DNA of 64,000 nt from Chromatiales bacterium (GTDB lineage: Bacteria > Pseudomonadota > Gammaproteobacteria > Steroidobacterales > GCA-2729495), in assembly GCA_016789845.1 (NCBI GenBank), contig JAEUQA010000013.1:62001-126000 (forward strand), written 5' to 3'. The stretch's first letter is position 1; the number at the start of each line of letters is the position of its first letter. The position numbers and the translations under genes are program-made. Below the pieces are notes generated by a model. The model did no database searches. It saw nothing but the letters and a program-made list of their open reading frames with translations, and was not told the DNA's origin. Shown one piece after another: positions 36,676 to 64,000 of the stretch.

Positions 36676-36728
36676 GCAGAATTCCTTGCTTGTCTTGTTG
36701 CCCGAGGCTAGCGCAATGCTGCGACCCC

Positions 36729-38229: not shown

Positions 38230-38674
38230 CCCCCAAGTCGATCGATTGCCATTCGGGTGAGTGACTGCAAGGGCCCGCAAGAGCCATACACTCACTACAA
38301 CCAAGGAACGCGCACGCGTCCACAAGGGCCGGTCAGGAGGGCTACCGGAGGCTCTGCCCAGTCAGTACATGGCGGCATGATCATGCTTCGACGGTCGCCG
38401 ACTTCCATCGCCGCTTCTAGATCAAATTGCTGCTGACGCCGCCGGTACTGGGCGGACCGTCGAAGGATAAGTTGACCTTACCACGGTGGTAAGGCTGAGG
38501 ATCAGCATCCCATCACACCGGGTGGATGTTGAAGTGGGCTTTCATGGGCTTGGGACCTGCACTGCCTGCTCGGCGCGCGTACGACATCCACTTGTTCAGG
38601 GGGCGCGAGTCAGCTGCTGTTCCCACTATTGTTCCCCAACGGCCAAATGTATGGCGGGCTCCCGTGCGCCTCGG
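38230..38674. other. Spacer with MerR-type promoter and inverted repeats, no supported gene
   Basis: This 445-base stretch has no convincing gene. It holds an inverted repeat GTGAGTG (38257-38263) / CACTCAC (38289-38295), an 11-base inverted repeat CTTCGACGGTC (38386-38396) / GACCGTCGAAG (38455-38465), and the MerR-type promoter at 38472-38502. Short open frames after the promoter, such as one starting MLKWAFMGLGPALPARRAYD, match nothing I know. It is probably a recombination scar where the gene once driven by the promoter was lost. Confidence 0.5.
38472..38502 (+). promoter_or_regulatory. CueR/MerR-type promoter and operator, apparently orphaned
   Basis: TTGACC (38472-38477), a 19-base spacer and GAGGAT (38497-38502) make a MerR-family promoter with the typical over-long spacer. 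The operator CCTTACCA-CGG-TGGTAAGG (38476-38494) is a perfect dyad. This is very like copper-responsive CueR/HmrR sites. It points rightwards, but no recognisable gene follows; the ATPase gene there is on the opposite strand and ends at 38675. Confidence 0.65.
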
Positions 38675-40999
<2,325 letters not shown>

Positions 41000-42525: not shown

Positions 42526-42691
42526 AGTTCTGCAGCATCACCGGAATGAGGGTTTCCGGCGTGACGGGCTGGCCGTGCATGTCGGTGTGTAGCCTGGCGT
42601 AATCGTCCAGGGCCTCCTTGAGTTCCACGGAGACCGCCACGGTGAGGCGCACTGGCTTGGCCGCAGGCAGCGGTCCGAGGCGCAGTTTCAC
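42476..42691 (-). CDS. DUF2274 protein at the end of the trb operon
   Basis: A 71-residue soluble protein (MKLRLGPLPAAKPVRLTVAV, then LKEALDDYARLHTDMHGQPV) typical of DUF2274, a family nearly always found right after trbI in Trb-type conjugation clusters. The first part resembles a ribbon-helix-helix fold. Its start overlaps the trbI stop by four bases. The function is not established. Confidence 0.88.
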   Translation of the reverse strand: MKLRLGPLPAAKPVRLTVAVSVELKEALDDYARLHTDMHGQPVTPETLIPVMLQNFMVNDRGFQQARRQKP

Positions 42692-43989
42692 AGTAATGCC
42701 TCCTTCGCTTCAGTTGGTCCGTAGGGCCGCAGCACCAGATCCCGATTGACGATCACCCGCACTGGATATCCCGGGCGAATAGTCAGCGTCGGCTGCTGAT
42801 TCAGATTGCGGCGCGTGAGCTGCTGGCCGATCTGGTTGATCGTGTCCTGGGCGCTATCGCGCGTAGCGATGATGATTGAACCCGAGTCGCCCGACCGATT
42901 CGGGGTGGCCAGCTCGGTGTTGATGCCAATCAGTGTGGCGAGGACCGCCCCGGTAAAGATCTGTTTCCAGTGCTGGTCAACCCCGTCTTCCAGTCCGGCG
43001 TAGCCGGCGAGGTCCACGCCAGGCAGTCGGTCCAGGACCAGCGACGAGCCGTCCGGAAGGAGTAGACGGGTCCAGACCAGTAGCACGCGTCGCTGGCCCC
43101 CGGCCACCTGGCTGTCGTACTGGCCGAGCAGCCTTGATCCCTGTGGAATCAGCAGGTGATCGCCGCTGACCGTGTCGAACACGTTGCCGGTCACCGTGGC
43201 AATGATCTGGCCGGGCAGGTCCGAGTTAATCCCCGTCAGCAACGCCGCGGGGATGACCGTGCCCGCCATGACCTCGTAGGGCGAGCGCGGCACCTGCAGC
43301 GTGCCGGTCGCGTAGATGGAAGGGTCCACGGCCTTGTCCAGGAACGCCTGCTTGGCGGACTGGCCGTTCCCGGGCGACCCGACATCGCCTTCTGATGGCG
43401 GACGATTAAGCCCGCTCACCTCCAAGGGTGCATCCGCATGGCGGGCCGCGGTCCCCTCACTGGGGTTCACGGCGCGCCGTTGGGCCAATGGAAAAAACAC
43501 CTGAGCCTTGGCCGCCGCCACTTCTTCGTCGTGCTGTTGCAGACGTCCCGAGCGGGCCGCGTCCTCCGCCGGATCCGGAAAGTAAGAGTCCCCGGCGGTG
43601 GCCCGATCAAAGCCGGCCTCCTCCTCTGCCCGCACCACCGGCCGACCGAGTTCGCCGACCGGCGCGCCGAGCACCGGGATTTTGGGGAGACTTCCATAGT
43701 CCCGCGGCAGAGCGCTTAAGCCCTCCGGCCGCGGAACCCGCTCCGCTCGCGGGGCCGCGGCGGCCTCCACGGCTCGCGGCGTTTGCGGCCGCAGCGCCCA
43801 CCATGTCGCGCCGAAAACCCCGAGACCCACGAGGCCCGTCGCAATCATCAAATTGCGGCGATTCAAGCGCACCACCGGTCGCGGCGGCGCGCGCAAGGCG
43901 AGGTGGTCGGCCGGCTCCTTAGCCTGATCGCCCCCCGAATTCAGCGCCGGTTCGCTCGCCTGGGGCGCCCCCGAACTGGGCTCGCTCAT
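42688..43989 (-). CDS. trbI: TrbI, VirB10-like channel scaffold
   Basis: A 433-residue inner-membrane-anchored protein that spans the periplasm and forms the core channel of the conjugative T4SS. A short cytoplasmic N-terminus is followed by one membrane helix near residues 47-66 (LMIATGLVGLGVFGATWWAL), a long proline- and charge-rich periplasmic linker and the C-terminal VirB10 domain (YEVMAGTVIPAALLTGINSD, QIIATVTGNVFDTVSGDHLL, PQGSRLLGQYDSQVAGGQRR). It overlaps trbG by four bases. Confidence 0.93.
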   Translation of the reverse strand: MSEPSSGAPQASEPALNSGGDQAKEPADHLALRAPPRPVVRLNRRNLMIATGLVGLGVFGATWWALRPQTPRAVEAAAAPRAERVPRPEGLSALPRDYGSLPKIPVLGAPVGELGRPVVRAEEEAGFDRATAGDSYFPDPAEDAARSGRLQQHDEEVAAAKAQVFFPLAQRRAVNPSEGTAARHADAPLEVSGLNRPPSEGDVGSPGNGQSAKQAFLDKAVDPSIYATGTLQVPRSPYEVMAGTVIPAALLTGINSDLPGQIIATVTGNVFDTVSGDHLLIPQGSRLLGQYDSQVAGGQRRVLLVWTRLLLPDGSSLVLDRLPGVDLAGYAGLEDGVDQHWKQIFTGAVLATLIGINTELATPNRSGDSGSIIIATRDSAQDTINQIGQQLTRRNLNQQPTLTIRPGYPVRVIVNRDLVLRPYGPTEAKEALL

Positions 43990-44945
43990 CGCCGGCGCTC
44001 CGCGGCCGGCAGGCGGCTGATCCGCACCGCCTGCTGGGAATCCGCGCCGAGCCGCAACTCCGCCGCCTCAAACAGCCGGTCGACCAGGTAGTACGGGGGC
44101 CGACTGCGGTAGTTCACCAACTCGACTTGGCCTTTCGGACCGACCGTGAAGAGCGGCGGGAGATCGCTGACCCCCGCCGGAAACTGGATATAGACCTTCT
44201 CCCCGTCATCGAAGGCCCGCAGCGGCCGCCAGGCGGGGCTGTCGCCGCTGATGCTGTAGCGAAAGTTCAGCCGCTCCAATGCCACGCCAGTGGCGACCGG
44301 CGCCACGGCCTGCGCGCTGGCCGTACTGGTCTTGAGCATCGCCAGTCGGTCCAGCGGGTAGCGCCAGGCCACCGCGGCAATCCAGGTGTCCGGGGTGGCG
44401 GTCAGCTCCAGGTGATAACTGCGGCGGTTGGTGTGAATGACCAGGTTGGTGGTCAGATCCGGGCGAACCGGTTTGACGAGCACGTGGACCCGCTCCTCGG
44501 CACCCGAGCCACTTAAGGTGTCGCCAATGACCCACCGGACCGTGTCGCCAGCCGACACGGAGATCAAGGTCTCGCCGGCCTCGAGCGCGATGTCCGTCAC
44601 CCGCTCGGGGCTTAAGTAGACCTGGTACAAGGCATCCGGGCTGTAAGGCCACAGCTGCGTGGCGTTGACGTAGTTGTCGAGGGTCGGCTCGACTCGGGCC
44701 GCCTCGTGGGCCACGCCCACCGCGCCGCGCGGATCGACAGCACCGGGTTCGGCCGGTTTTAGTTTGAGCTGGCCGGGCAGTGGTAGCAGCTTCGGGACCT
44801 CCACCACTTCCACCGGCTTCGGCGGTTCCGGGAGCCGCGCGGCCAGTACCAGCTCGTCGGGCGGCGCTTCCAACGGGGGCGGCGTCGCACACGCGACCAG
44901 GGCACCGGACAGGGTCAGCAACACCAATAGATTTCGCACAGACAT
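43986..44945 (-). CDS. trbG: TrbG, VirB9-like outer-ring protein
   Basis: A 319-residue exported protein with a lipobox-like signal end (LSGALVACATPP). The VirB9 domain is seen in YSPDALYQVYLSPERVTDIA, LEAGETLISVSAGDTVRWVI, VLVKPVRPDLTTNLVIHTNR and YSISGDSPAWRPLRAFDDGE. It forms, with TrbI, the outer-membrane part of the channel. Six bases separate it from trbF. A lipid anchor could take the place of VirB7, for which no gene is seen. Confidence 0.92.
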   Translation of the reverse strand: MSVRNLLVLLTLSGALVACATPPPLEAPPDELVLAARLPEPPKPVEVVEVPKLLPLPGQLKLKPAEPGAVDPRGAVGVAHEAARVEPTLDNYVNATQLWPYSPDALYQVYLSPERVTDIALEAGETLISVSAGDTVRWVIGDTLSGSGAEERVHVLVKPVRPDLTTNLVIHTNRRSYHLELTATPDTWIAAVAWRYPLDRLAMLKTSTASAQAVAPVATGVALERLNFRYSISGDSPAWRPLRAFDDGEKVYIQFPAGVSDLPPLFTVGPKGQVELVNYRSRPPYYLVDRLFEAAELRLGADSQQAVRISRLPAAERRR

Positions 44946-44951
44946 ACTCCT

Positions 44952-45644
44952 TCAACCGGTCGCGTTCAGCTCCCGGCTCCAGTTCAGACCATCGACATAA
45001 ATTCCTAAGGGGTTCTGACGCAGCCGCTGCTCGTCCCGCGGCGGATTGAGCAGGACAGTGAGAATGGCCGTCCAGCGCTCGGTGGTGGCCAGCGCCCCGT
45101 TGGCGTACGCGCGCTCGAGCCACCGCACCTGAAACGAGTTCTCCGAGGCCCGGACCACACTGGTGACCTCAACCGCCACCGACGTTTGCCCGACCCGGGC
45201 GAAGGGGTCGTTGGTGCGGGCGTAGTCGTTGAGCGTGGCCGCGCCGCGATCCGTGACCGTGTCATAGGCGGCCAGCCAGTTGTCCCGGAGCACGATCGGA
45301 TCGATGGAGCGGGACCGCACGCGGCGAATGAACTGCTCCAGGTGGTAGGCGAGTTGCGCTTCGCTGGGCCGGTAGGTCTCGGTGGCGGGCCCCACCGCCC
45401 GCACGGCACCCAGCCGGTCGACCTCCACCACGTAGGGCGTGATGGTCGAGCGGCCGAGCTGGGCCAGCAGCCCGCCCGCGATGAATCCCGAGAGGATCAG
45501 ACAGCCAAAGGCCATCCGCCGCCAGTTCAGCGCCTGGACGCGGGCGCCGCCGATGCGCTCGTCCCAGAGCTGCTGAGCAGACTGATAGGGCGTCGCCGGT
45601 GGCGGCGTGGTCGAGTAACGGACACTGGGTCGTCGAAAGCGCAC
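44952..45644 (-). CDS. trbF: TrbF, VirB8-like assembly protein
   Basis: A 230-residue inner-membrane protein with one membrane helix (MAFGCLILSGFIAGGLLAQL, residues 46-65) and a periplasmic NTF2-like VirB8 domain (VDRLGAVRAVGPATETYRPS, later SFQVRWLERAY, ATTERWTAILTVLLNPPRDE). The start is GTG 45644, three bases after trbL. It nucleates assembly of the channel in the VirB8 model. Confidence 0.92.
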   Translation of the reverse strand: MRFRRPSVRYSTTPPPATPYQSAQQLWDERIGGARVQALNWRRMAFGCLILSGFIAGGLLAQLGRSTITPYVVEVDRLGAVRAVGPATETYRPSEAQLAYHLEQFIRRVRSRSIDPIVLRDNWLAAYDTVTDRGAATLNDYARTNDPFARVGQTSVAVEVTSVVRASENSFQVRWLERAYANGALATTERWTAILTVLLNPPRDEQRLRQNPLGIYVDGLNWSRELNATG

Positions 45645-45647
45645 GGT

Positions 45648-46856
45648 TCAGTCCTCCTGGCGTAGTGAAGGGTTGGCACCGGCACCGCCGGCGTCCGCGC
45701 CGCGCACGGTGTGGGCGGCGGTTGCAATTCCGTGAGTCATGGTCTGGCGGGACGCGAACTGGCGCGCCCAGCCCGGTGCCGCGCTGCTGCTGGCACTGGC
45801 TGGCGGCCCGCCGCCCGTGGCTGCCCTCGATGCGCCGGCCAGGGCGCTGCCGGCGCCAGACGCGGGTGCCGCTCGGCCACCACCGGTCATGGCCGCCACG
45901 GCGTTGGCCGCGCGCGCTTTCAGCCCGCTGGCGGCCTGCAGGCCGGCACTCGCCCCACCGGCAGCCAGGCGCGATCCGCCTGCCACGGCAGCGCCACCCG
46001 CCACCGCGAGGCCCGTGGCCGCCAGCGCCGTGCCGGCCGCCGCGCCGGCGCCCAGTTGCGGGGCACCAGACACGAGGCCAGCAGCGATGCCCGGACCGTA
46101 GATGCCGAGCCCGAACAGGGCCAGGGCGCCGAGCATGGTGGCCAGCGCCACGTCGAGGCTCGGGTCGGCGCCGGTGGGCGCCGTGAACTCACCAAAGATC
46201 CCACTGCCGATGCCAACAATCACCGCCAGCACGAGCACCTTGATCCCGGAGGCCACCACGTTGCCGAGCACCCGCTCGGCGAGGAACGCCGTCCGGTTCC
46301 ACAGGGCAAAGGGCACCAGAATGAAGCCTGCGAGGGTCGTCAACTTGAACTCGATGAGCGTCACGAACAGCTGCACCGCCAGAACAAAGAAACTGACGAT
46401 CACCACCAGCCAGGCGAGGAACAGCACGGCGATACTGTCGATGTTCAGGAACACCTCCGGGAAACCGGCGAGAGTCCCGATCTGGGCGAGCAGCGGCCGA
46501 CCCGCCTCGACACCCACCGCGGCGAGGCGCCCCGGCTGCAGCAGCTCCGCTTCCGTCAGCGCAGACCCGGTCGCGGTGAGCCCGAGTCCGGCAAAGGAGT
46601 GAAAGAGGATGCCGGACAGCTGGTTGAAGTTATTGAGAATGAAAGCGAAGGCCCCGACGTAGAGAATCTTCTTCAGCAGCTTCGCGATGACGTCATCGGT
46701 ACCCCCCATCGCCCAGAACAGGCCGGCGAGCGTCACGTCGAGGGCCACCAGGATGCCGGTCAGCCAGGCCACCTCCCCGCCCAGCAGGCCAAACCCTGAG
46801 TCGATGTACTGGGTGAAGATCGCCAGGAAGCGGTCGATGACGCCGAGATTGTCCAT
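45648..46856 (-). CDS. trbL: TrbL, VirB6-like inner-membrane channel protein
   Basis: A 402-residue polytopic protein with five or six membrane segments in the first 260 residues (VAWLTGILVALDVTLAGLFW, ILYVGAFAFILNNF, AVLFLAWLVVIVSFFVLAVQ, FALWNRTAFLAERVLGNVVA). The C-terminal third is low in complexity, Ala/Gly/Ser-rich, as in other TrbL/VirB6 proteins. It lies 35 bases after trbJ; there is no room for trbK, the entry-exclusion gene found here in RP4. Confidence 0.9.
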   Translation of the reverse strand: MDNLGVIDRFLAIFTQYIDSGFGLLGGEVAWLTGILVALDVTLAGLFWAMGGTDDVIAKLLKKILYVGAFAFILNNFNQLSGILFHSFAGLGLTATGSALTEAELLQPGRLAAVGVEAGRPLLAQIGTLAGFPEVFLNIDSIAVLFLAWLVVIVSFFVLAVQLFVTLIEFKLTTLAGFILVPFALWNRTAFLAERVLGNVVASGIKVLVLAVIVGIGSGIFGEFTAPTGADPSLDVALATMLGALALFGLGIYGPGIAAGLVSGAPQLGAGAAAGTALAATGLAVAGGAAVAGGSRLAAGGASAGLQAASGLKARAANAVAAMTGGGRAAPASGAGSALAGASRAATGGGPPASASSSAAPGWARQFASRQTMTHGIATAAHTVRGADAGGAGANPSLRQED

Positions 46857-46891
46857 GGATCAGAACCGAGTGAGTGCGGGTCAGTGAAGGG

Positions 46892-47620
46892 CTACGGCGC
46901 GAACATTTCGACGGTGGCGGGCGTGTAACGCGTGCCGTCACCGAGAAACTTCACGCGCACGGCCCGGGCCCGCTCGGCCGCGGCCACGGTCCGCGCCGAT
47001 TCGGTCGCGACCGCCCGCCCTTCGCTGATCGCGAGCTGCTGGGCCTGCAGCTGCTGGCGGATGGACAGCGCTAACAACTGATTGCCGGCCTGAGTCGCCT
47101 CCAGGGCGCCGGCGGCGCCCTGACTGCGGGTGACGAGATCCCCCAGCACCGACTCGTCGGTCCGGAAGTTCTCCTGCACCTGAGCCTGAACCCGCACCGC
47201 GGTGCGCAGGGCTTCAAGCGAGTTGCGCCAGTGCTCGCGAGCATCGGTGAGCAACTGCGAACCCGTGACCGTGCGGGCGTAGGTGTCGGGATAGAGGGTG
47301 GCAAACTGCGTTTCCACCTGCGTGACCTGGAACGCCAGACCCCGCGCTTCGGCGATGAGCCGGTCGGTGGCAGCCAGCGCGACCCGCAAGTCATTCAGCG
47401 CATTGAAATCCAGCGCGCGGAGATTGCGCGCCTGGTTCTGCAGCATCAGTGCCTCGTTCTGCAGCTGATGGATCTGGTTGTTCACCTGTTGCAAGGTGCG
47501 AGTCGCGGTCAACAGGTTCTGCGTGAAGTTCGACGCGTCGAAGACGGGGAATGCGTGGGCCGGTCCGGCCGTCAGGCCGACCAGCACCATGAGGGCAACG
47601 GTGTTTTTGATGGCGTTCAT
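46892..47620 (-). CDS. trbJ: TrbJ, VirB5-like pilus-associated protein
   Basis: A 242-residue periplasmic protein with signal peptide (MNAIKNTVALMVLVGLTAGP, AHA cleavage) and long amphipathic helices (TRTLQQVNNQIHQLQNEALM, RQQLQAQQLAISEGRAVATE), as in VirB5/TrbJ minor pilins. ATG 47620 is chosen because of the signal peptide; it overlaps the trbE stop by four bases. Confidence 0.92.
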   Translation of the reverse strand: MNAIKNTVALMVLVGLTAGPAHAFPVFDASNFTQNLLTATRTLQQVNNQIHQLQNEALMLQNQARNLRALDFNALNDLRVALAATDRLIAEARGLAFQVTQVETQFATLYPDTYARTVTGSQLLTDAREHWRNSLEALRTAVRVQAQVQENFRTDESVLGDLVTRSQGAAGALEATQAGNQLLALSIRQQLQAQQLAISEGRAVATESARTVAAAERARAVRVKFLGDGTRYTPATVEMFAP

Positions 47621-50061
47621 GAGGATCTCCCGGTTGAGGTGATGGAGGGAAAGTTCTCGGCGAGCACCGCGGCCCAGGCCAGGCCCCGGTGGCGCAGCCA
47701 CGCCGCGGCAAACTGCGCTGCGGCAGGCGGCGTGTGGAATGACTCACATATAGAGTCGATGGCCCGCTGGTCGGCGGGGGTCGAGGCGCCGGCGAATGCC
47801 AGGGCGATGGGCCCGAGGTCCAGGTCGAAGAGCCGGGCGCCGAGCGCTGACTGGTAGTAGTACTCGCGCTTGGGTGTGGCCCGGGCAATGATCCCGATCT
47901 GCCGGTCGTTGAGCCCGAAGCCCTGGTAGATCGTCTTGAGCTGGGGCTCGGTGGCCTGGGGCGAGGGCAGAAAGATCCGGCTCGGGCAGCTCTCGATCAG
48001 CGCCGGCGCAATCGACGAGCGCCCGATGTCCGCCAGGGACTGGGTGGCGAAGATCACTGATACGTTGCGCTTGCGGAGCGTCTTCAACCACTCGCGGATC
48101 CGCCCGGCGAAGGCCGGGTCGTCCAGAAACACCCAGGCCTCGTCGAGGATCAGCAAGGTCGGCGCGCCGTCGAAGCGCGCCTCCAGCCGATGAAAAAGAT
48201 ACGTCAACACCGGCAGCACGGCGCTCTTGCCGTGCATGAGGGCTTCCATCTCGAAGCCCTGCACGTCGGATGCACCCAGCCGGTCCTGATCCGCGTCGAG
48301 CAACCGCCCGTGGGCACCGCTCAGCGTGTAGGGCTGGAGCGCCTGGCGCAGGTCATGGGACTGCAGCAGGATCGAGAGCCCGGTCAGCGTGCGTTCCGCC
48401 GGTGGGGCGGACGAGAGGCTGCCGAGGGCCGACCACACGGCGTCCTTGACGGCGGGGGTCAGTTCCACACCTTCGTGGACCAGCAGCGTGGCCAGCCACT
48501 CGGCCGCCCAGGCACGCTCGGTGGAGTCATCAATGCGAGCGAGCGGCTGAAAGGCGATCGCGCCCTCCGCGCCCAAGTCATAGTGCTCGCCACCGAGCCC
48601 GAGGACCGTGGCGCGCACCGAACCGCCCTTGTCGAAGATGAAGAGTCGCGCACCCGGGTAGCGGCGGAACTGCAGGGCGAGCATGGCGAGCAGCACGGAC
48701 TTGCCGGCGCCGGTGGGGCCCACTACCAGGGTGTGCCCCACGTCGCCCACGTGGGTCACCAGCCGAAACGGCGTGGCCCCGCCGGTGCGGGTGACCATGA
48801 GCGGCGCGCCGTTGAGGTGCGCGTTGCGCTCTGGCCCGGCCCAGACCGCGGAAAACGGCATGAGGTGGGCCAGATTAAGCGTCGAGATCAGCGGCTGACG
48901 GACGTTGGCGTAGACCTGTCCCGGTATTGACGAGAGCCAGGCTTCCACCGCGTTGAAGGACTCGGGGACCGTCACAAAGCCCCGGCCCTGAATCACCCGC
49001 TCCACGGCTTTGCGCTGCTCGTCGGCCGCGGCTGGGTCGGGATCGCTCACCACCACGGTGGCCGTCACGTAGCCGTAAGCGACCGCATCACTGCCCAGCT
49101 CCTGGAGCGCCCGGTCCGCGTCGGCCGCCTGGTTGTCGGCGTCCGAGTCCACCAGGGGACTCGCCTCCTGAGTCAGCGTCTCGCGCAGCATCGCCACCAG
49201 ACCCTTGCGCTTGCTGAACCAGTGGCGGCGGAGCGTGGTGAGTTCGTGCTCGGCGGCCGCCTTGTCCAGGCACAGAAAGCGCGTGGTCCAGCGGTACGCA
49301 AAGCCGAGGTGATTGAGGTCATCGAGCAATCCCGGCCAGGTGGTCGCCGGAAAGCCCCGCACGGTCAGCACCCGCAGGTGCGCGTTCCCCAGCATCGGGC
49401 TCAAGCCCCCGGCCAACGGCGCGTCCGCCAGTAGCGCATCCAGATGAAACGGCACGTCGGGCACCGCCACCGGGTGACGAGTGCTTGAGACGCAGGCGTG
49501 CAGGTAGGTCAGCGTCTCCCCGTCGGTGAGCCACTGCACTTCGGGCAGCGCACTCTCCAGGAGCGACAACAACCGGTCGGTGGCGGTCACGAAGGCGGCC
49601 AGCTGCTCCCGCCAGTCAACGCTGGCCCGCGCCGGCTGCTCGAACAGCCACTGGGTGGCTCGCGCCCGAGACTCGGGCGGCGGCAGCCAAACCAGGGTCA
49701 GGTGGTAAGCGCTCTCGAAGTGCGACCCTGCCGACTCGAAGGCGGCCCGGCGCTCTTCGTCCACCATCAGGGACAGCGCGTCTGGAAAATCCTCCACCGG
49801 GTAAGCCGCCGCCGGTCGCCGGGCGGCCTCCACGCCCAAGGCCCAGCCGGAGCCGAGACGCTTCAGGGCGTTGTTGAGACGCGCGGTCGCGGCCAGTAGT
49901 TCGCTCTCACTGGCACTGTCCAGGTCCGGCCCGCGAAACTTGGCCGTGCGCTGGAAGGCGCCGTCCTTGTTCAAGACGACCCCCGGGGCCACCAGCCCCG
50001 CCCAGGGCAGGTAGTCGGCCAAAGCGCGCGGTCGCCTCTGATACTCAGCTAAAGACAACAC
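47617..50061 (-). CDS. trbE: TrbE, VirB4-like ATPase
   Basis: An 814-residue cytoplasmic/inner-membrane ATPase that powers pilus assembly and substrate transfer. The CagE/TrbE N-terminal domain covers about 1-400. The Walker A motif is VVGPTGAGKSVLLAML near residue 450 and Walker B is LLILDEAWVFLDDP, followed by SVIFATQSLADIG. Starts at GTG 50061 (MLSLAEYQRRPRALADYLPW), three bases after trbD. Length is normal. Confidence 0.95.
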   Translation of the reverse strand: MLSLAEYQRRPRALADYLPWAGLVAPGVVLNKDGAFQRTAKFRGPDLDSASESELLAATARLNNALKRLGSGWALGVEAARRPAAAYPVEDFPDALSLMVDEERRAAFESAGSHFESAYHLTLVWLPPPESRARATQWLFEQPARASVDWREQLAAFVTATDRLLSLLESALPEVQWLTDGETLTYLHACVSSTRHPVAVPDVPFHLDALLADAPLAGGLSPMLGNAHLRVLTVRGFPATTWPGLLDDLNHLGFAYRWTTRFLCLDKAAAEHELTTLRRHWFSKRKGLVAMLRETLTQEASPLVDSDADNQAADADRALQELGSDAVAYGYVTATVVVSDPDPAAADEQRKAVERVIQGRGFVTVPESFNAVEAWLSSIPGQVYANVRQPLISTLNLAHLMPFSAVWAGPERNAHLNGAPLMVTRTGGATPFRLVTHVGDVGHTLVVGPTGAGKSVLLAMLALQFRRYPGARLFIFDKGGSVRATVLGLGGEHYDLGAEGAIAFQPLARIDDSTERAWAAEWLATLLVHEGVELTPAVKDAVWSALGSLSSAPPAERTLTGLSILLQSHDLRQALQPYTLSGAHGRLLDADQDRLGASDVQGFEMEALMHGKSAVLPVLTYLFHRLEARFDGAPTLLILDEAWVFLDDPAFAGRIREWLKTLRKRNVSVIFATQSLADIGRSSIAPALIESCPSRIFLPSPQATEPQLKTIYQGFGLNDRQIGIIARATPKREYYYQSALGARLFDLDLGPIALAFAGASTPADQRAIDSICESFHTPPAAAQFAAAWLRHRGLAWAAVLAENFPSITSTGRSS

Positions 50062-50064
50062 CGG

Positions 50065-50328
50065 TCAGACCTCCAGGTGTGTCGGGTACTTGAGGTGCCG
50101 GGCAAACACCTCCAGAAACTGCGGGTCGGTTTTCGCCCCCCAGACCGCCAGCGTGTGTCCGACCACCGCCAGCACGGCGCCCAGGACCCAGAACTGCAGC
50201 CCGATGCCCACCGCGGCGGCCAGCGTGCCGCTGACAATCGCCAGCGGCCGTGGCGCCCCGCCGAGCAGGATCGGCTCGGTCAGTGAGCGGTGCAGCGGCA
50301 CTTCAAAGCCGTCGGTTAGGTCCGTCAC
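50065..50328 (-). CDS. trbD: TrbD, VirB3-like membrane protein
   Basis: An 87-residue inner-membrane protein with the VirB3 pattern: VPLHRSLTEPILLGGAPRPL, then two membrane segments (LAIVSGTLAAAVGIGLQFWV, LGAVLAVVGHTLAVWGAKTD) and the conserved end FLEVFARHLKYP. Starts at GTG 50328, overlapping the trbC stop by four bases. Confidence 0.92.
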   Translation of the reverse strand: MTDLTDGFEVPLHRSLTEPILLGGAPRPLAIVSGTLAAAVGIGLQFWVLGAVLAVVGHTLAVWGAKTDPQFLEVFARHLKYPTHLEV

Positions 50329-50657
50329 GCGACCAGCGCCCCGCCGGCGAAGCTGAAGAAGCTCAGGAAGAACGTCGAGGCGGCAAAGGCGATCGACAGG
50401 CCGAAGACAATCTGAATCAGCCGTCGGAAACCGCCACTGGTGTCGCCAAACGCGAGCGTCAACCCCGTGACGATGATGACCATGACGGCGATGATTCGGG
50501 CCACCGGCCCCTGGACGGAGTCGAGCACCGCCTGCAGTGGTGCCTCCCAGGGCATATTGGAGCCGGCCGCCTGAGCCTGGGCGACGACCAGAAGGGACAG
50601 GGGCAGGAACAGCGCCCGCCGCACGAACGGCTGCAGTCCACAGTCAATTTTCAGCAT
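50325..50657 (-). CDS. trbC: TrbC, VirB2-like pilin
   Basis: A 110-residue prepilin with signal peptide (ALFLPLSLLVVAQAQAAG) and two hydrophobic helices (ARIIAVMVIIVTGLTLAFGD, IQIVFGLSIAFAASTFFLSF), the usual pilin layout. ATG 50657 has a GGGAG ribosome site six bases upstream and overlaps the trbB stop by 14 bases; ATG 50663 is the alternative. In RP4 the TrbC pilin is cyclised; whether this one is cannot be seen. Confidence 0.9.
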   Translation of the reverse strand: MLKIDCGLQPFVRRALFLPLSLLVVAQAQAAGSNMPWEAPLQAVLDSVQGPVARIIAVMVIIVTGLTLAFGDTSGGFRRLIQIVFGLSIAFAASTFFLSFFSFAGGALVA

Positions 50658-51645
50658 GAGCATCTCCCGGGGGTGTTTCGATAGGCTCCAGGTGATAACC
50701 GTCCGGGGTGAGCCCAACGACCCGGACAATATCTTCGATGCGCCGGCGCTGGCCGCGCCCGGCGATGAACACCACGACATCAACGGCCTCGGCGATCAGG
50801 GCGCGGGGCACGGTGATGACAGTTTCCTGAATGAGTTGTTCGAGGCGGGTCAGGGCGCCGCGCGCGGAGCCCGCGTGCAACGTGGCAATGCCGCCCGGAT
50901 GACCGGTGCCCCAGGACTTGAGCAGGTCGAGCGCCTCACTGCCCCGCACCTCCCCGACCACAATCCGATCGGGACGCAGGCGCAGCGTGGATCGGACCAG
51001 GTCGGCCATGGAAACCACGCCCGGGCGCGTGCGCAACGGCACGTGGTCGTCCGCCAGACACTGCAATTCAACAGTGTCTTCCAGGACAATGACCCGGTCG
51101 CCCGTTCTCGCCACTTCCTGCAGCAGCGCATTCGCGAGCGTGGTCTTGCCGGTGGAGGTGCCGCCGGCGATGACAATGTTGGCGCGACTCCAGACGGCAC
51201 CCTGTAGGAACGTGGCCTGCGCCTCGGTGAGGACGCCGGTCGTGACGTATCGGCTTAGGGGAATCACCCCAGCCGACCGTTTCCGAATTGCGAAGGTGGG
51301 CGCGCGCACGATCGGGGGCAGCACGCCCTCAAAACGCTCGCCCGTCTCGGGCAGTTCGGCCGAGACCAGCGGCGCCCCGGCGTGCACCTCCTGGTGCACG
51401 TGGGAGGCCACCAACCGGATGATCCGTTCGGCCGCAGCCGCCGGCATGGTGATTCCCGAGGGCGTGCGACCCGCACCCAGCCGGTCAAACCACAGCAAAC
51501 CGTCTGGGTTAAGGAGAATCTCCACGATGTCCGGATCGGCCAGCGCGCCGGCAATGACCGGCCCCAGCGCGCTGCGGAGCATGCGACTCTGCCGGTCCAG
51601 CACCTGAGCGGCGGACGTGAGCGGCGAAATCAGCGGCCCGGTCAT
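50644..51645 (-). CDS. trbB: TrbB, VirB11-like secretion ATPase
   Basis: A 333-residue cytoplasmic hexameric ATPase of the T4SS. Walker A is AGGTSTGKTTLANALL near residue 160; the Asp box (VIVLEDTVELQC), Walker B (PDRIVVGEVRGSEALDLLKS) and His box (GTGHPGGIATLHAGS) follow. Starts at ATG 51645, overlapping the CopG-like gene by four bases. Length is normal. Confidence 0.95.
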   Translation of the reverse strand: MTGPLISPLTSAAQVLDRQSRMLRSALGPVIAGALADPDIVEILLNPDGLLWFDRLGAGRTPSGITMPAAAAERIIRLVASHVHQEVHAGAPLVSAELPETGERFEGVLPPIVRAPTFAIRKRSAGVIPLSRYVTTGVLTEAQATFLQGAVWSRANIVIAGGTSTGKTTLANALLQEVARTGDRVIVLEDTVELQCLADDHVPLRTRPGVVSMADLVRSTLRLRPDRIVVGEVRGSEALDLLKSWGTGHPGGIATLHAGSARGALTRLEQLIQETVITVPRALIAEAVDVVVFIAGRGQRRRIEDIVRVVGLTPDGYHLEPIETPPGDAHAEN

Positions 51646-52100
51646 GGCACGTCCTCCGGTGGGCTCGGGTCCGGCGCGAAGAACTCCGCGTCCTCCGGCC
51701 GGATCTCGGCGTGGACGGCCTTGACCAGGCTCCCGCCCCGCTGCAGATGCCGGCCAAGCTGCTCGACGAACTGGGCAAAGCGCGCCGCGCCCTGGGCCCG
51801 GGCCCGCTCCTGATGTTCGGTCGGAATGGGGAGATTCGCCGCCAGCGTGTAGCGCACGAAGAGCGCCAGCGTCTCGAGCCCGATCTGCTGGTCGCGCTCC
51901 AGCCGTTCAAACTGGCGAGTCAGTCGGTCCAGGCGCGTGGCGATGGCCGCCTCCCGGCGGTCGGCACCCTCCGGCGACAGAAAGGCGGCCAGTGCGGCGG
52001 CAACGATGCTCGACTTGGACAAGCCCCGCATGGTCGCCAGCTCGGCCAGCCGGCGCTCGTGCTCCCGCTCAAGAAAGATGTTGAGGCGGGCCCGACTCAC
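51642..52100 (-). CDS. CopG/RHH-family protein between traG and trbB
   Basis: A 152-residue protein with an N-terminal ribbon-helix-helix domain (MSRARLNIFLEREHERRLAE, TMRGLSKSSIVAAALAAFL) and a helical C-terminal part (RLDRLTRQFERLERDQQIGL). Genes like this occur between traG and trbB in Tn4371-type elements and are annotated as CopG-family regulators. It may regulate the transfer operon or help TraG. GTG 52100 overlaps the traG stop by four bases. Confidence 0.85.
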   Translation of the reverse strand: MSRARLNIFLEREHERRLAELATMRGLSKSSIVAAALAAFLSPEGADRREAAIATRLDRLTRQFERLERDQQIGLETLALFVRYTLAANLPIPTEHQERARAQGAARFAQFVEQLGRHLQRGGSLVKAVHAEIRPEDAEFFAPDPSPPEDVP

Positions 52101-54043
52101 AGGGCGATCTCATCGACAGGATTACGGGCCGACTGTCGAGGGGCTCGCCTGAATGGAAGTGCCGGCGACGGACGGACGTGAGGGGTTTCAGGCAACGTGC
52201 CCACGTCCATGCCCGGCTCGATCTCGGGAGACTGCCCGGGTTGGCCATCGTCGTCCCCACCGACCGGCCCGGGAGGTGGCAGGCTGGATTCGGTGGGAAC
52301 GACGACAGCGCGTTCGGTCCAGTCGTCGGCCCGGGGTGCGGGCCGATCGGTATAGCCAGCGGCAGACAGCACCGGAGGCGGCAACAGCCGTCGCGTGAAA
52401 TTGGCGTCCTCGTAATAGCGGAGCTTCTGCGCCCGCACCGGCGCGTGGCCAGCGACCATGACGATCTCTTCGTCCGGTGGCAGCTGCATGACCTCGCCCG
52501 GCGTCAGCAGCGCGCGCGCCGACTCCTGGCGGGAGACCATCAGGTGCCCAAGCCAGGGCGCCAGCCGGTGACCGGCGTAGTTGCGCTGGGCGCGGAGTTC
52601 AGTGGCCGTGCCCAAAGCGTCCGAGATTCGGCGGGCCGTGCGCTCGTCGTTGGTGGCGAAAGCGACCCGCACGTGGCAGTTGTCCAGGATCGCGTGGTTC
52701 GGCCCGTAGGCCTTCTCGATCTGGTTCAACGACTGGGCGATCAGGACCGCGCGCAGGCCGTACCCCGCCATAAAAGCCAGTGCCGACTCGAAGAAATCCA
52801 GCCGCCCGAGTGCCGGAAACTCATCCAGCATCAGCAGCAGCGTTCGGCCCGATCGCCCCCGATCCTCTAGCGACTCGGTCAGGCGCCGCCCGATCTGGTT
52901 CAGGAGCAGTCGAATGAGTGGCTTGGTGCGGGAGATGTCTGAAGGCGGCACCACGAGGTACAGCGAGACCGGGTGCGAACCCTCCGCCAAATCCGCAATC
53001 CGCCAGTCACACCGGGCCGTCACGGCAGCGACCGTCGGGTCCCGGTAGAGCCCCAGGAAACTCATCGCCGTGGACAGCACGCCGGAGCGCTCGTTGTCGC
53101 TCTTGTTCAGCACCTCCCGGGCGGCGGAGGCGACCACCGGGTGGGGTGCGCCCGCCACGTGCGGCGTGGCCATCATCGCCCACAGCGTTTGATCGAACGT
53201 CCGGGCCGGATCCGACAGAAAGTTCACGACGCCCCGCAGGGTCTTGTCGGGTTCCGCGTAGAGCACGTGGAGGATGGCGCCCACCAGCAGGGCGTGGGAG
53301 GTCTTCTCCCAGTGGTTGCGCCGCTCCAGTGCACCCTCCGGGTCCACCAGGATGTCCGCAATGTTCTGCACGTCGCGGACTTCGTGGACACCCTGGCGAA
53401 CTTCCAGTAGCGGGTTGTAGGCGGCCGAGCGCGCGTCGGTCGGGTTGAACAGCAGGCAGTGCGAACTCTTGGACCGCCAGCCCGCCGTCAGCTGCCAGTT
53501 CTCGCCCTTGATGTCGTGGATAACCGCGGACCCGGGCCAGGTGAGAAGCGTCGGCACCACCAGCCCCACGCCCTTGCCGGAGCGCGTCGGCGCAAAGGCC
53601 ATCACGTGCTCCGGTCCGTCGTGGCGCAGGTAGCTCTGCCCCACCCTGCCCAGAAAAACCCCCGCCGGTCGCGTCAGGCCGGCCTGCGCGACTTCGCGGG
53701 GTGTCGCCCAACGGGCGGAACCAAAAGTGGTGACCAGGCGAGACTGGCGGGCCCGCCACACCGAACCGAGGATGGCCGATAGAGCACCGAGCATGCCGCT
53801 GCCCCCGGCGATCAGGCCGCCCGTGTTGAACACGCGGGGCGCGTAGGCCTCGTAGACAAACCACCACTCGAAGAGCCGCCAGGGGTAGTAGACCGGCAGG
53901 CCCTGCAGCCGAAACCAGGGCGCGCCCAGCCGGCGCTGGAATCCCAACTGCCACGCGGTCCACTCGGTCGCCGTCCACGTCCCAAGCACGACGATGGCCA
54001 GCACCAGGAGCATTTGGCCGATGAGGATCTTGCCCGCCGTCAT
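52097..54043 (-). CDS. traG: TraG, VirD4-type coupling protein
   Basis: A 648-residue inner-membrane ATPase that hands the relaxase-DNA complex to the channel. Two N-terminal membrane helices (ILIGQMLLVLAIVVLGTWTA near residue 6, then LIAGGSGMLGALSAILGSVW near 78) precede the ATPase domain with Walker A in AFAPTRSGKGVGLVVPTLLT and Walker B in LLLMLDEFPALGRLDFFESA. ALIAQSLNQIEKAYG is the conserved sensor region. It is the first gene of the transfer operon; a 304-base spacer rich in inverted repeats lies upstream. Its presence makes the system conjugative rather than a pure secretion system, although no relaxase gene is in the window. Confidence 0.95.
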   Translation of the reverse strand: MTAGKILIGQMLLVLAIVVLGTWTATEWTAWQLGFQRRLGAPWFRLQGLPVYYPWRLFEWWFVYEAYAPRVFNTGGLIAGGSGMLGALSAILGSVWRARQSRLVTTFGSARWATPREVAQAGLTRPAGVFLGRVGQSYLRHDGPEHVMAFAPTRSGKGVGLVVPTLLTWPGSAVIHDIKGENWQLTAGWRSKSSHCLLFNPTDARSAAYNPLLEVRQGVHEVRDVQNIADILVDPEGALERRNHWEKTSHALLVGAILHVLYAEPDKTLRGVVNFLSDPARTFDQTLWAMMATPHVAGAPHPVVASAAREVLNKSDNERSGVLSTAMSFLGLYRDPTVAAVTARCDWRIADLAEGSHPVSLYLVVPPSDISRTKPLIRLLLNQIGRRLTESLEDRGRSGRTLLLMLDEFPALGRLDFFESALAFMAGYGLRAVLIAQSLNQIEKAYGPNHAILDNCHVRVAFATNDERTARRISDALGTATELRAQRNYAGHRLAPWLGHLMVSRQESARALLTPGEVMQLPPDEEIVMVAGHAPVRAQKLRYYEDANFTRRLLPPPVLSAAGYTDRPAPRADDWTERAVVVPTESSLPPPGPVGGDDDGQPGQSPEIEPGMDVGTLPETPHVRPSPALPFRRAPRQSARNPVDEIAL

Positions 54044-55648: not shown

Positions 55649-58099
55649 CTACTTGGGTTGATACGCCAAGAGTCGGAGGGCGTTGAAAACCACTAAGAGC
55701 GTTGAACCCTCATGGAACACGACCGCGGCGCCCATTTGCAATCCGAGTACGGTTGCGGGAATAAGGAATGCGACAATGCCGAGGCTGAACCAGAGATTCT
55801 GCCGAATGATACGGCTCGTTTGCCGGCTCAGGCCGACGGCGAAGGGGAGATGGTTCAAGTCGTCAGCCATCAACGCCACATCGGCGGTTTCCAAGGCAAC
55901 GTCTGAACCAGCCGCGCCCATCGCGATCCCGACCGTGGCATTTGCCATCGCGGGAGCGTCGTTCACGCCGTCGCCAACCATTGCCACGCCCTCTTGTCGG
56001 GCGAGTTTCTTGATCGCCTCGAATTTGTCGTGGGGCATCAAGTCACCCAGGGCTTCGTCGATACCGACTTCTTTGGCGACCGTATTGGCTACCTGTTGAT
56101 TGTCACCCGAGAGCATAATCATTCGCCGGACGCCTAGCTCTCTCAAGCGGGTAATTACGTCTTTGGCCGCCTCACGCGGCGTGTCCATCAAGCCCAGCAC
56201 ACCGAGGTAGGTGTCACCACGCCGGACGATCATCGTTGTGCGTCCGCCGGCTTTCAGCTTCTCAACCGACTCGCGCAACGCGTCCGGGAGCGGCGGTCCC
56301 TCAACTTCCGCGAACAGGCTGTCTTTGCCGATGTAAACCGGCTGACCGTCAACGGTGGCTTTGACCCCGCGGCCGATGATGCTTTGCACGTCGTGGGCCT
56401 GCAGGCCCGCATCGCTCTTCAGTCGTTCTTTGGCACCCAGCACCACGGCGGCGGCCAGCGGATGGTCGCTGAGTTTTTCGACGGCCACGGCAACTCGCAA
56501 CAACTCGTCTTCGGCGACGCGATCTGCACCGACCACGTCGGTCAGCCGCGGTTTTCCTTGCGTCAATGTGCCGGTCTTGTCGAAGGCGATGGCGCCGAGT
56601 GTTCCCAGGTGTTCCAGCGGGCCGCCGCCTTTGACGAGCACTCCGCCGCGTGCCGCGCGAGCCACGCCGCTCAACACCGCGCTCGGCGTCGAAATCGCCA
56701 GGGCGCAGGGGCTGGCCGCCACCAACACCGCCATCGCGCGGTAGAACGACTCGCTGAACGGTTCATCGATGACAACCCCGGCGAACAACAGCAGGGTGAC
56801 TAATGCCAGCGCTGCGGGGACGAAATAGCGCTCGAACTTGTCGGTGAAAAGCTGAGTCGGGGACTTTTGCGTCTCGGCCTCATTCACCATTTTCACGACG
56901 CGGGCCAGCGTGGATTCGCTGGCAAGCTTGGTCACCTGTATCTCCAGAGCGCCGCTGCCATTGATCGTGCCGGCGAACACGCGATACTCCGGATCGAGTT
57001 GATCAGCATTCGCGGCCGCCTTATGCGGATCATCCACTGCCCGCTTGTCCACGGGGACGCTTTCGCCGGTGATCGGGGCCTGATTGACACTCCCCTCCCC
57101 CTTGATCACGAACCCATCCGCGGGAAGCCGCTCGTTCGGTTTAACGATCACGACATCCCCAGGCCGCAGCTGCTCCACCGGTAATTCCGTGGTGTTTCCC
57201 GCGCGCCGGATGACTGCGGTCTGGGGCGCAAGTTCGGCGAGGGCTTCGATGGCCCGTTTGGCGCGGCCCATCGCATAGTGTTCCAGCGCGTGTCCGAGGC
57301 TGAATAGAAACAGCAGAAGAGCACCTTCGGCCCATTTTCCGAGCGTGGCGGCGCCTATGGCTGCCACCAGCATCAGAAAGTCAATTTCAAACCGGCCGGC
57401 GCGAATGTTCTGGATCGCTTCTCGAAACGTGAAAAAGCCGCCGAACCCGTACGCCGTTAGATACAGGCTCCAAGGCATCCACGGTGGGATCCTGGTCAAT
57501 CCTGACAGCAGCCAGCCGCTGAGGAGTAGTCCGCCGGAGAGCGCGGCGAAAACCAACTCCGTCCGCTCGCCAAATAGGCCGCCATGTTCCTGTTCCTCCT
57601 GTGCTCGCTTGCCTCCGACTTCAGATGGTTCGACTTCGGTCCGCGGGGTTGCCAGTTGGATGATTCGCACACCGATCTTTTGCACCCCCGCCACTATGGC
57701 TTCTCCGTCGGCTGCTTGGCGATCAAACTCGATGCGCAGCACGCCGGCGGGAGACGCGGCGGCTTCCAGCACTCCGGCGATTTTTCTCGCTCGCGCCTCG
57801 ACGGTCCGCGCCTGCCGAGCGTGCATCGGTTCCGTCTTCAGCAACAGGTGCCCGAACCGGTTGGCGAGTTTCACTCCGGCTCGGTGGGCCAAAGCGCGAA
57901 CTTCACCGATCGACAGCCGCGCGGGATCATAGTGAATGCAGATTTGGTCGGGTCCCTCGTTTTTTATGTCTGCAAGGTGTGCGTCATCGATTCCTTCCGT
58001 CGCTTTCAGCAAGTCGCCGAGTCGCCGAATGCATGTGTCGCGCGCATCCGGCACCTCGGGCAACAACAGAGCGATTGCGATACGCGCCTTCTCAGTCAT
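55649..58099 (-). CDS. P1B-4-type heavy-metal ATPase (Co/Zn/Fe type)
   Basis: An 816-residue inner-membrane ATPase. The transport motif is SPC (VAASPCALAISTPSAVLSG) instead of CPC, and the last membrane part has HEGST (VVFHEGSTLLVVFNALRLL); this pair defines the P1B-4 group (CoaT/CtpD), which exports Co2+, Fe2+, Zn2+ or Ni2+. The phosphorylation motif is DKTGTLTQGKP, with the HP-locus SDHPLA and [12 protein letters not shown]. The 170-residue N-terminus looks like two degenerate HMA domains (ARIAIALLLPEVPDARDTCI, RLSIGEVRALAHRAGVKLA) with no CxxC metal site. A broken CDF transporter gene lies upstream in the same direction. Confidence 0.9.
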   Translation of the reverse strand: MTEKARIAIALLLPEVPDARDTCIRRLGDLLKATEGIDDAHLADIKNEGPDQICIHYDPARLSIGEVRALAHRAGVKLANRFGHLLLKTEPMHARQARTVEARARKIAGVLEAAASPAGVLRIEFDRQAADGEAIVAGVQKIGVRIIQLATPRTEVEPSEVGGKRAQEEQEHGGLFGERTELVFAALSGGLLLSGWLLSGLTRIPPWMPWSLYLTAYGFGGFFTFREAIQNIRAGRFEIDFLMLVAAIGAATLGKWAEGALLLFLFSLGHALEHYAMGRAKRAIEALAELAPQTAVIRRAGNTTELPVEQLRPGDVVIVKPNERLPADGFVIKGEGSVNQAPITGESVPVDKRAVDDPHKAAANADQLDPEYRVFAGTINGSGALEIQVTKLASESTLARVVKMVNEAETQKSPTQLFTDKFERYFVPAALALVTLLLFAGVVIDEPFSESFYRAMAVLVAASPCALAISTPSAVLSGVARAARGGVLVKGGGPLEHLGTLGAIAFDKTGTLTQGKPRLTDVVGADRVAEDELLRVAVAVEKLSDHPLAAAVVLGAKERLKSDAGLQAHDVQSIIGRGVKATVDGQPVYIGKDSLFAEVEGPPLPDALRESVEKLKAGGRTTMIVRRGDTYLGVLGLMDTPREAAKDVITRLRELGVRRMIMLSGDNQQVANTVAKEVGIDEALGDLMPHDKFEAIKKLARQEGVAMVGDGVNDAPAMANATVGIAMGAAGSDVALETADVALMADDLNHLPFAVGLSRQTSRIIRQNLWFSLGIVAFLIPATVLGLQMGAAVVFHEGSTLLVVFNALRLLAYQPK

Positions 58100-58261
58100 A
58101 CGTTTCTTTCTGACCCATTTTCGACACTGCCGCGCACTTGGGTACTGCTACCCCCCTCCCTGATCAGGGGCCGGCGCACCTGCCTCCTGATCGTGACGCG
58201 CCGCGGCCGTGAAGTGGGATGGGATGGGTTGGGTTGGACCTCTCTGGCCGGCAGGAGCCGT

Positions 58262-58480
58262 CGATGCGCCAGCTGATGGCGACGGCGATGAGGGGGTCGA
58301 CCCATATTGACGTTGAGACCTCCGAACTTGCCCGCGGAGAGCATCCCATCGCGACCAGGGTGACCACCAGCGCCACAACAGCCACGCCGAGCATTTCCAG
58401 CGGTTCGATCTCCTGCGGCGGCCGAGCCGTCGCCGGGCCTCATACATGAAGTAGAGGGCAACCAGAAACAAGGGCGTTGC
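58262..58480 (-). pseudogene. Broken cation diffusion facilitator (CzcD/ZitB-like) gene
   Basis: Pieces of a CDF transporter appear in three frames on the minus strand: LFLVALYFMYEARRRL, then EIEPLEMLGVAVVALVVTLV after a one-base shift, then MLSAGKFGGLNV in the next frame, and WVDPLIAVAISW after a deletion. Order matches CDF proteins such as CzcD, but the region between LNV and WVDP (a membrane helix with the metal site) is missing. The remainder up to 58100 is not recognisable. It once stood next to the P1B-4 ATPase, as CDF genes do in Co/Zn/Cd islands. Confidence 0.7.
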
Positions 58481-58563: not shown

Positions 58564-59697
58564 CTAGCTACTGCTACCTTCACGCACCGTATTGCTAATC
58601 CATCCCTGGAACGCCGGATGTTCGATGAGGCCCTTGTTGGCAAATTTATAGTTCAGCCCGGCGAGGTCCTTCTGCAAACGAGCGTGAAAGCCGCCCTTAG
58701 TGAGAATCATCGGCACAATGACCACGTCGAGACCTTTGTCAGTCGCTTCCTTGATGAGGCCGCGAAGCTCCGCCACGTGGGCAGCGCGAATGGGCGGCAC
58801 CGCGTCGTCTTCAAGGGAAACCACCTTGATGTCCTTGAAATTGCTCGTATTGCGAATACTGGTCGCGTGATTCTCCAGAAGCTTCAGCTCTGCAGGATTA
58901 TCCTTCGGATCCTCTGGGCCGTGAGAAACGAGGATCAACCGATCCTTATCGGGATGTGCGCTGGCTTCAATGGCATAGTCCCTCATGATGGTAGAGATAC
59001 GCGAGTCCGCGGCTGGCGACTTCGTAAACACGACTTTGGCTTCCGTCCTGACACGAGGCACCGCGAGGTAGGGCGCCTCCTCCCGCAGACCGAAAATATA
59101 CTGCCATTGATGGATCAGGGAGGTATCGTCACCCGGTTCCATCGGCACGACCACGATGGTCTTGACGCCGTGCTTGCTGGTGAGCTCGTCGACGGCTTGC
59201 TGGATATGCGCCGATGACATCATCGCCATGCCTGGCGCCACAGCCGTGGGATATTCCTTTGATATGGGCTGCGCATAGTTCTCGAATTGCTCATTGCCGC
59301 CCAACTTGTAGCCGTGCCCCAGCGCCAGCACGCCAATATTGCCTTGCATATCCTTGGTGCTGATGAGACCCCAGAAATCGGGCGGCATGCGCGTCATGTT
59401 CGTCATAATGTCTTCGTCAGACATTACTTCGTAGAGCGGAATTTTTTCCCTCAGCTCGGCCATCTGTGCGGGCGTCATCATCTTTGAATGATCCATCCCT
59501 GCCATGTCGGGCATCCCTTCCATGGACTTGGCAGCGGCGGCTGCGGCGTCCTCTTTCGCCGGCGTTCGACTGGGCGCCGCGGTGGACGCTGGGGTGTTCG
59601 GATTGCAGGCTGCAACGCTGAGTGCAAATATGCTCGAGACCAAAGCGGTCCTAGCCCAGCGCAAGCCATCCGTACTGGTAGGTATGATACGTTTCAT
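58564..59697 (-). CDS. Lipoprotein with tandem CbiX/SirB chelatase-like halves
   Basis: A 377-residue predicted lipoprotein (signal ALVSSIFALSVAAC, lipid Cys31). A Met/His-rich linker follows (residues 59-80: MEGMPDMAGMDHSKMMTPAQ). Residues 118-215 and 250-345 resemble the two halves of sirohydrochlorin/cobalt chelatase proteins. The first has LALGHGY (His128) and PMEPGDDTSLIHQW; the second has ILVSHGPED (His259) and PMILTKGGFHARLQKDL (His338), matching the metal-binding GHG and PxxLxxGxHxxxD motifs. Cytoplasmic CbiX inserts cobalt into precorrin; an exported, lipid-anchored version cannot do that easily, so a metal-binding or sensing role is more likely (inference). It sits between the P1B-4/CDF remnant and the CzcA operon. 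Confidence 0.75.
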   Translation of the reverse strand: MKRIIPTSTDGLRWARTALVSSIFALSVAACNPNTPASTAAPSRTPAKEDAAAAAAKSMEGMPDMAGMDHSKMMTPAQMAELREKIPLYEVMSDEDIMTNMTRMPPDFWGLISTKDMQGNIGVLALGHGYKLGGNEQFENYAQPISKEYPTAVAPGMAMMSSAHIQQAVDELTSKHGVKTIVVVPMEPGDDTSLIHQWQYIFGLREEAPYLAVPRVRTEAKVVFTKSPAADSRISTIMRDYAIEASAHPDKDRLILVSHGPEDPKDNPAELKLLENHATSIRNTSNFKDIKVVSLEDDAVPPIRAAHVAELRGLIKEATDKGLDVVIVPMILTKGGFHARLQKDLAGLNYKFANKGLIEHPAFQGWISNTVREGSSS

Positions 59698-59842: not shown

Positions 59843-60115
59843 TTAGTTGGATGACTCCTGATCCGGCTCGGACGCCGAGAGTGGCTCACCGGTCGGTGTC
59901 CACCCCCGACGTGCCAGGCACTTCGCTACGTGCTCTTCAGTCGCCTTCAGGGCAATGCGCTGATTCATAGCGCCCGTGTGTTGGAAACGACACACGGATA
60001 AAGCCTTCCGGAATTGGCTGTCGGGACTGGCCGCAGATTGTTCTTGCAGGGTGCAACTGGCGACACCGATGAGGATGGCAGTTACCAATGGAAACCAAAT
60101 GGAGCGGAGCTGCAT
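59843..60115 (-). CDS. Small lipoprotein-like protein, copy C of a three-member family
   Basis: A 90-residue predicted lipoprotein from ATG 60115, with a GAGGAGG ribosome site upstream. Signal FPLVTAILIGVASC has a lipobox VASC at about residue 21. The core is the best-preserved one: KALSVCRFQHTGAMNQRIAL, then KATEEHVAKCLARRGWTPTG. It is closest to copy A (9606-9893). It lies 19 bases after the PII-like gene in the same direction, so it is probably the last or next-to-last gene of the czcB-czcA-PII operon. A role in envelope metal handling is inferred from position. Confidence 0.72.
   Translation of the reverse strand: MQLRSIWFPLVTAILIGVASCTLQEQSAASPDSQFRKALSVCRFQHTGAMNQRIALKATEEHVAKCLARRGWTPTGEPLSASEPDQESSN

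Positions 60116-60134: not shown

Positions 60135-64000
<3,866 letters not shown>

Follow-up and report, generated by a model that had tools for sequence, protein, structure and literature searches.

What would a protein with the fold of a class II chelatase do outside the cytoplasm, encoded among genes for metal efflux? This question is raised by one gene in the window, by which we mean the whole stretch of 64,000 nucleotides that was analysed (contig JAEUQA010000013.1 of the Chromatiales bacterium assembly GCA_016789845.1). To our knowledge, exported class II chelatases are represented by a few isolated cases only. It is also an open question, for many bacteria, how iron is freed from haem once the haem is not in the cytoplasm.

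Results

The gene encodes a lipoprotein with a Met-rich linker

The open reading frame is found exactly where the initial annotation had placed it, and the lipoprotein signal that had been claimed is present (Table 1): a positive n-region and then a hydrophobic stretch precede the lipobox L-S-V-A-A-C31. Next come a low-complexity stretch, the linker and a pair of alpha/beta lobes. Residues 57-79 or so form the linker, which had been described as Met/His-rich. It is indeed rich in methionine, with 8 Met, but because it contains a single histidine this description overstates the histidine content of the window copy. The same N-terminal region is His-rich in the other members of the family (88 copies were aligned); a tail of the MDHSxH type is found family-wide, and position 70 is a histidine in 84 of the 88.

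Table 1. Features of the window around the chelatase-fold gene.
Feature	Position	Strand	Basis
Exported, lipid-anchored protein of predicted class II chelatase fold, 377 aa	58564..59697	(-)	ORF, Pfam, AF2 model, Foldseek
Signal peptide and lipobox LSVAAC; lipidated Cys31, Asn at +2	59605..59697	(-)	by sequence
Met-rich linker, residues 57-79 (KSMEGMPDMAGMDHSKMMTPAQM)	59461..59529	(-)	sequence; family tail of MDHSxH type
Lobe 1, about residues 120-246: H128, M159 (for CfbA Glu42), S193 (for CfbA His75)	58960..59340	(-)	CfbA alignment, AF2 model, 88-copy alignment
Lobe 2, about residues 247-372: H259, D298, H338	58582..58959	(-)	88-copy alignment, AF2 model
P1B-type heavy-metal ATPase, SPC and HEGST motifs	55649..58099	(-)	motifs, family match
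Non-coding or broken stretch resembling a CzcD-type CDF fragment	58164..58470	(-)	by eye only
Small putative lipoprotein, no family, between the P-II-like and chelatase-fold genes	59843..60115	(-)	ORF, Pfam
P-II-like protein	60135..60455	(-)	Pfam
CzcA/CusA-family RND pump	60452..63601	(-)	family models
End of periplasmic adaptor (CzcB-like); whole gene in locus L012	63613..63999	(-)	ORF
trb/TraG-type conjugation genes (TrbI, TrbL, TrbE, ATPase, coupling protein); island carrying the metal genes	42688..54043	(-)	

The protein has a predicted class II chelatase fold

The Pfam CbiX model matches the first half of the protein at 24.9 bits (cut-off 22), and the NCBIfam CfbA models match the same half (4e-9) at 36.5 bits, far below their cut-off of 120. 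The second half is matched by no family model and was identified from its position and fold. When the PDB was searched by sequence with the window protein as the sole query, only a chance match was returned; a search with the family profile gave a weak match to CfbA. An AlphaFold2 (AF2) model, for which 33 family sequences were used as input, has a pLDDT of 87 and a pTM of 0.83 and consists of two beta-alpha lobes with pseudo-twofold symmetry, in line with the two CbiX-like halves described in the initial annotation. The top match of this model in the PDB by Foldseek was Bacillus subtilis SirB (2.5e-8; TM 0.71 by target length). Other matches were the periplasmic CbiKP (1.7e-6), HemH (5e-6) and FetB (2e-4), and Deinococcus radiodurans DR2241 and ferrochelatases were also among the best. 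Because of the model and these matches, we consider a class II chelatase fold well supported; the comparison with CbiX and SirB that had been proposed as a check did not yield an unlike fold. The premise that such chelatases are always cytoplasmic proved wrong, as CbiKP (2xvz) and IhtB/FetB (9b86) are exported and have the same fold (PMC11301274, PMC6460266).

CfbA residues His9, Glu42 and His75 align to H128, M159 and S193 of lobe 1. The site in lobe 2 was assigned from this alignment and from the position of residues after the corresponding strands in the model. H259 and H338, the two histidines that had been claimed to be intact, are both present and would occupy the lobe-2 counterparts of His9 and His75, where they form a predicted H-D-H site with D298. 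A direct comparison of the two lobe sequences gave a weak alignment only (P 0.004), which pairs H128 with H259. H196 was considered as a second ligand in lobe 1 and rejected: CfbA His75 aligns to Ser193, and position 196 is an arginine in most copies. We infer that the window copy has one complete lobe plus the first histidine of the other. Bilobal chelatases keep the His pair in just one lobe (PMC7689651), and in reported SirB variants an extra His9-type histidine in the second lobe confers nickel chelatase activity (PMC11301274). By alignment and position, such a His9/His75-type pair within one lobe is present in the window copy and absent from most of its family.

The family is exported and largely confined to one order

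The source genome contains six exported paralogues, including the window copy. Relatives were found in 35 of 60 near genomes and in 55 of 396 genomes of the order. At class level the count falls to 6 of 369 genomes, where the distant relatives are long proteins, and at phylum level to 2 of 299. The family is thus expanded and largely confined to one bacterial order. Its named members come from MAGs of Gammaproteobacteria and, in a few cases, of Alphaproteobacteria; one Alphaproteobacteria MAG has three copies on one short stretch (L071:1384-8520). No relative was found when the named genomes were scanned with the window copy as single query, and phage records contain none.

An exported-type hydrophobic N-terminus is present in 85 of the 88 copies and a lipobox in a handful. 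No cobalamin or sirohaem gene was recognised among the neighbours of the family copies examined. The location and neighbourhood of the relatives had been suggested as a test of the exported assignment, and cytoplasmic relatives in cobalamin or sirohaem operons were not what we found. It is highly improbable that the signal is spurious and that the window protein is a normal anabolic chelatase for sirohydrochlorin or cobalt. The CbiX and CfbA models do match its first half, but the matches are weak, with the NCBIfam cut-offs missed by far, and both the export signal and the neighbours speak against such a role.

Across the 88 copies, H128 is present in all, H259 and D298 each in 87 and M159 in 85. 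W198, N267, R304 and D344 are strictly conserved, as is H259 with D298. H338 is not a feature of the family: it occurs in 6 copies, all of them from the same clade as the window copy, and in the other clades the residue is almost always a glutamine. Separately, one copy from the clade encoded with HrtBA-like genes (L016:1633-2571) has an asparagine (GNGPED) at the position of the second-lobe histidine, which is otherwise invariant.

Because lobe 1 lacks two of the three chelatase ligands and most of the family has a glutamine at position 338, catalysis by the family is uncertain. It is possible that the protein is a pseudo-chelatase turned sensor or carrier: haem or porphyrin would be bound but not chemically altered, and the protein would signal its presence or shuttle it. 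The loss of these canonical ligands and the expansion to six copies in the lineage are consistent with this, and the constant His128 and His259, which face the cleft, could act as ligands. However, the strictly conserved residues (H259 together with D298, as well as W198, N267, R304 and D344) look like those of a working site, and no signalling partner is encoded beside the window copy. We regard this explanation as quite unlikely.

The family tree has several clades. In it, the window copy pairs with one chromosomal paralogue (54-56% identity) within clade C, which has no constant neighbour partner. Two associations were observed elsewhere. Clade B copies (L078, L109, L089 and L084) have genes for UbiD-type decarboxylases close upstream. 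A protein of about 190 amino acids with a conserved MDRLHEQDQ motif and no Pfam match adjoins family genes in 11 genomes, mostly just upstream (loci include L112:7294-7872, L110, L114 and L071).

The window copy lies in a metal module on a conjugative island

The genes of the module are all on the minus strand, in the order czcCBA, P-II-like gene, small lipoprotein gene, chelatase-fold gene and P1B ATPase gene. The initial annotation had placed the protein between a P1B-4 ATPase with a CDF remnant and a CzcA pump. The P-type ATPase and CzcA were borne out, but the remnant is unproven: the stretch has no Pfam match and no tblastn match with one plasmid cation transporter, and its resemblance to a CzcD-type piece with a frameshift was judged by eye. 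No haem- or iron-uptake genes lie beside the window copy, whose neighbours are genes for metal efflux and conjugation. Also on this island are genes for a multicopper oxidase and for a copper-type P-ATPase that contains a heavy-metal-binding domain (34837-40999), and a further RND pump is found in the window at 11319-14453.

The GC3 of the window gene (0.69) is like that of the P1B ATPase gene (0.71) and the P-II gene (0.74) and unlike that of the chromosomal paralogues (0.88-0.92). For this reason the gene probably arrived with the metal-resistance cargo of the island; its insertion into the czc module from the chromosome was rejected on the same grounds. As its composition suggests arrival with metal cargo, the window copy may have a role in metal resistance.

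The initial annotation had gone further and proposed a Co2+ or Ni2+ buffer or sensor feeding the RND pump. Export, anchor and fold have held up; the buffer role, which draws solely on the neighbours of the window copy, is disfavoured. Under this explanation the protein would buffer or chaperone Co, Ni or Zn (or Cu) in the periplasm and pass the metal on to CzcCBA, and the fold would provide a metal site only, with no tetrapyrrole. The co-directional position of the gene between czcCBA/P-II and the P1B ATPase, its GC3, the Met-rich tail and the complete predicted H259/D298/H338 site all fit. However, similar czc modules are common on plasmids, and the two plasmid modules that were read in detail have no chelatase-fold gene, so the czc pump does not need the window protein. 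No other family copy among those examined is in a czc operon, and the tail and both lobe histidines are common to copies in unrelated contexts. Thus we consider a buffer for CzcCBA rather unlikely.

Clade A is encoded with a HrtBA-like exporter

Clade A copies, unlike the window copy, are encoded in a tight operon with an FtsX/MacB-type permease, a LolD-like ATPase and usually a TetR regulator. The single close PDB match of the permease is HrtB (7w78_B, 6e-38; 2.7e-37 for the permease of the source genome), and the best PDB match of the ATPase is HrtA. 7w78_B belongs to the Corynebacterium diphtheriae HrtBA series, of which 7W7D is named as HrtBA in PMC11442138. Glu219 is a haem ligand of HrtB (PMC11442138), and in our alignment the equivalent residue is a glutamate in all full-length permeases of the set. 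The permease was found in 22 of 60 relatives, and in 20 of these 22 the operon also contains the family gene; in the remaining 2 the contig ends before the place expected for it. The operon reaches other families of the order, and no HrtB-like permease was found elsewhere in 185 genomes of the class or in 299 of the phylum. According to a 2024 review, no HrtBA homologue has been identified in Gram-negatives (PMC11442138). HrtBA-like loci in Gram-negatives, usually with TetR and with the haem-ligand Glu kept, were observed here at L131:5476-7909 and at further loci such as L011:6645-9293, L186 and L190.

Distant cousins adjoin genes suggestive of haem or iron handling

At the other end of the family, exported CbiX-like proteins with four lobes (565-681 aa) were observed at L182-L185, L013 and L014. 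Such distant cousins adjoin genes for TonB-dependent receptors, PepSY_TM, ExbBD, ferritin, Fur or NnrS, and four-lobe relatives on Candidatus Manganitrophus plasmids are in such TonB/PepSY/iron-type settings. The HrtBA-like partner of clade A and the TonB/PepSY/ExbBD/ferritin/Fur genes beside the cousins thus indicate haem or iron at either end of the family.

Discussion

We propose that the family handles tetrapyrroles or their metal in the cell envelope, by haem or porphyrin binding and possibly demetallation, and that the window copy has been co-opted into metal resistance. We give this reading a probability of about 0.5. The analysis shows the family, the fold (as a model), the export signal (from the sequence) and the operon link of clade A; the ligand, the activity and the role of the window copy are what we infer. 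In our model, an exported paralogue of the class II chelatases (SirB/CbiX/CbiK) would have its site of action in the cell envelope, where it would act on a tetrapyrrole together with its metal. Haem or a related porphyrin (the most likely ligand) may bind in the cleft that separates the lobes and then be held, handed over or demetallated, while the His/Met-rich N-terminal tail may take up or deliver the metal. The clade A protein would be the periplasmic partner of the HrtBA-like exporter. The window copy, with its full predicted H-D-H site in lobe 2, would have come on the conjugative island and may there have taken on a role under stress from divalent metals or haem. Three points argue against this model. 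The window copy is in a clade with no constant partner and its own neighbours are genes for divalent-metal efflux; catalysis is uncertain for the reasons given above; and HrtBA-like transporters could carry other hydrophobic cargo.

A more specific version can be put forward only tentatively. It is possible that Gram-negative bacteria of this order have an HrtBA-type haem or porphyrin exporter with a dedicated periplasmic chelatase-fold partner, which captures or demetallates what is exported, and that a conjugative metal-resistance island has recruited a lipid-anchored mobile version of this partner. A large exported family with multiple copies and a link to an HrtBA-like exporter in Gram-negatives would offer a testable system in which to study how haem or porphyrin is exported, captured and demetallated in the periplasm. 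The window copy would be a case of an exported chelatase-fold protein spreading with metal-resistance genes.

Comparison with known systems

SirB, CbiX and CfbA share with the window copy the fold, the histidine at the His9 position in both lobes and the histidine at the His75 position in lobe 2. Unlike them, the window copy is exported, has Met159 and Ser193 in place of the lobe-1 Glu42 and His75, and is not in a biosynthetic operon.

CbiKP, the periplasmic cobaltochelatase of Desulfovibrio vulgaris (PDB 2xvz), resembles the window copy in fold, export and lobe-2 type metal site. The two are about 12% identical in the structural match; the window copy differs in its lipid anchor and in Asp298, which takes the place of a glutamate ligand. 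We know of no Met-rich tail in CbiKP. The title of a paper cited in PMC11301274 reports CbiKP as a haem-binding protein.

IhtB/FetB of Porphyromonas gingivalis is an exported, CbiK-like haem protein of the outer membrane, which is thought to take iron from haem (PMC6460266). It (PDB 9b86) and the window copy are both exported and have a CbiK-like fold, although the match is structural only. Its TonB-receptor context resembles that of the distant cousins, whereas the window copy is in a metal-efflux module.

HrtBA with HrtR is the counterpart of the clade A operon, in which HrtB- and HrtA-like proteins and TetR are encoded with the family gene and the haem-ligand Glu is kept. The known HrtBA systems are Gram-positive (PMC11442138) and have no chelatase-like partner, and the window copy is outside an HrtBA-like operon. 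Exported chelatases were already known in CbiKP and IhtB/FetB, whereas the family described here and its link to HrtBA look new.
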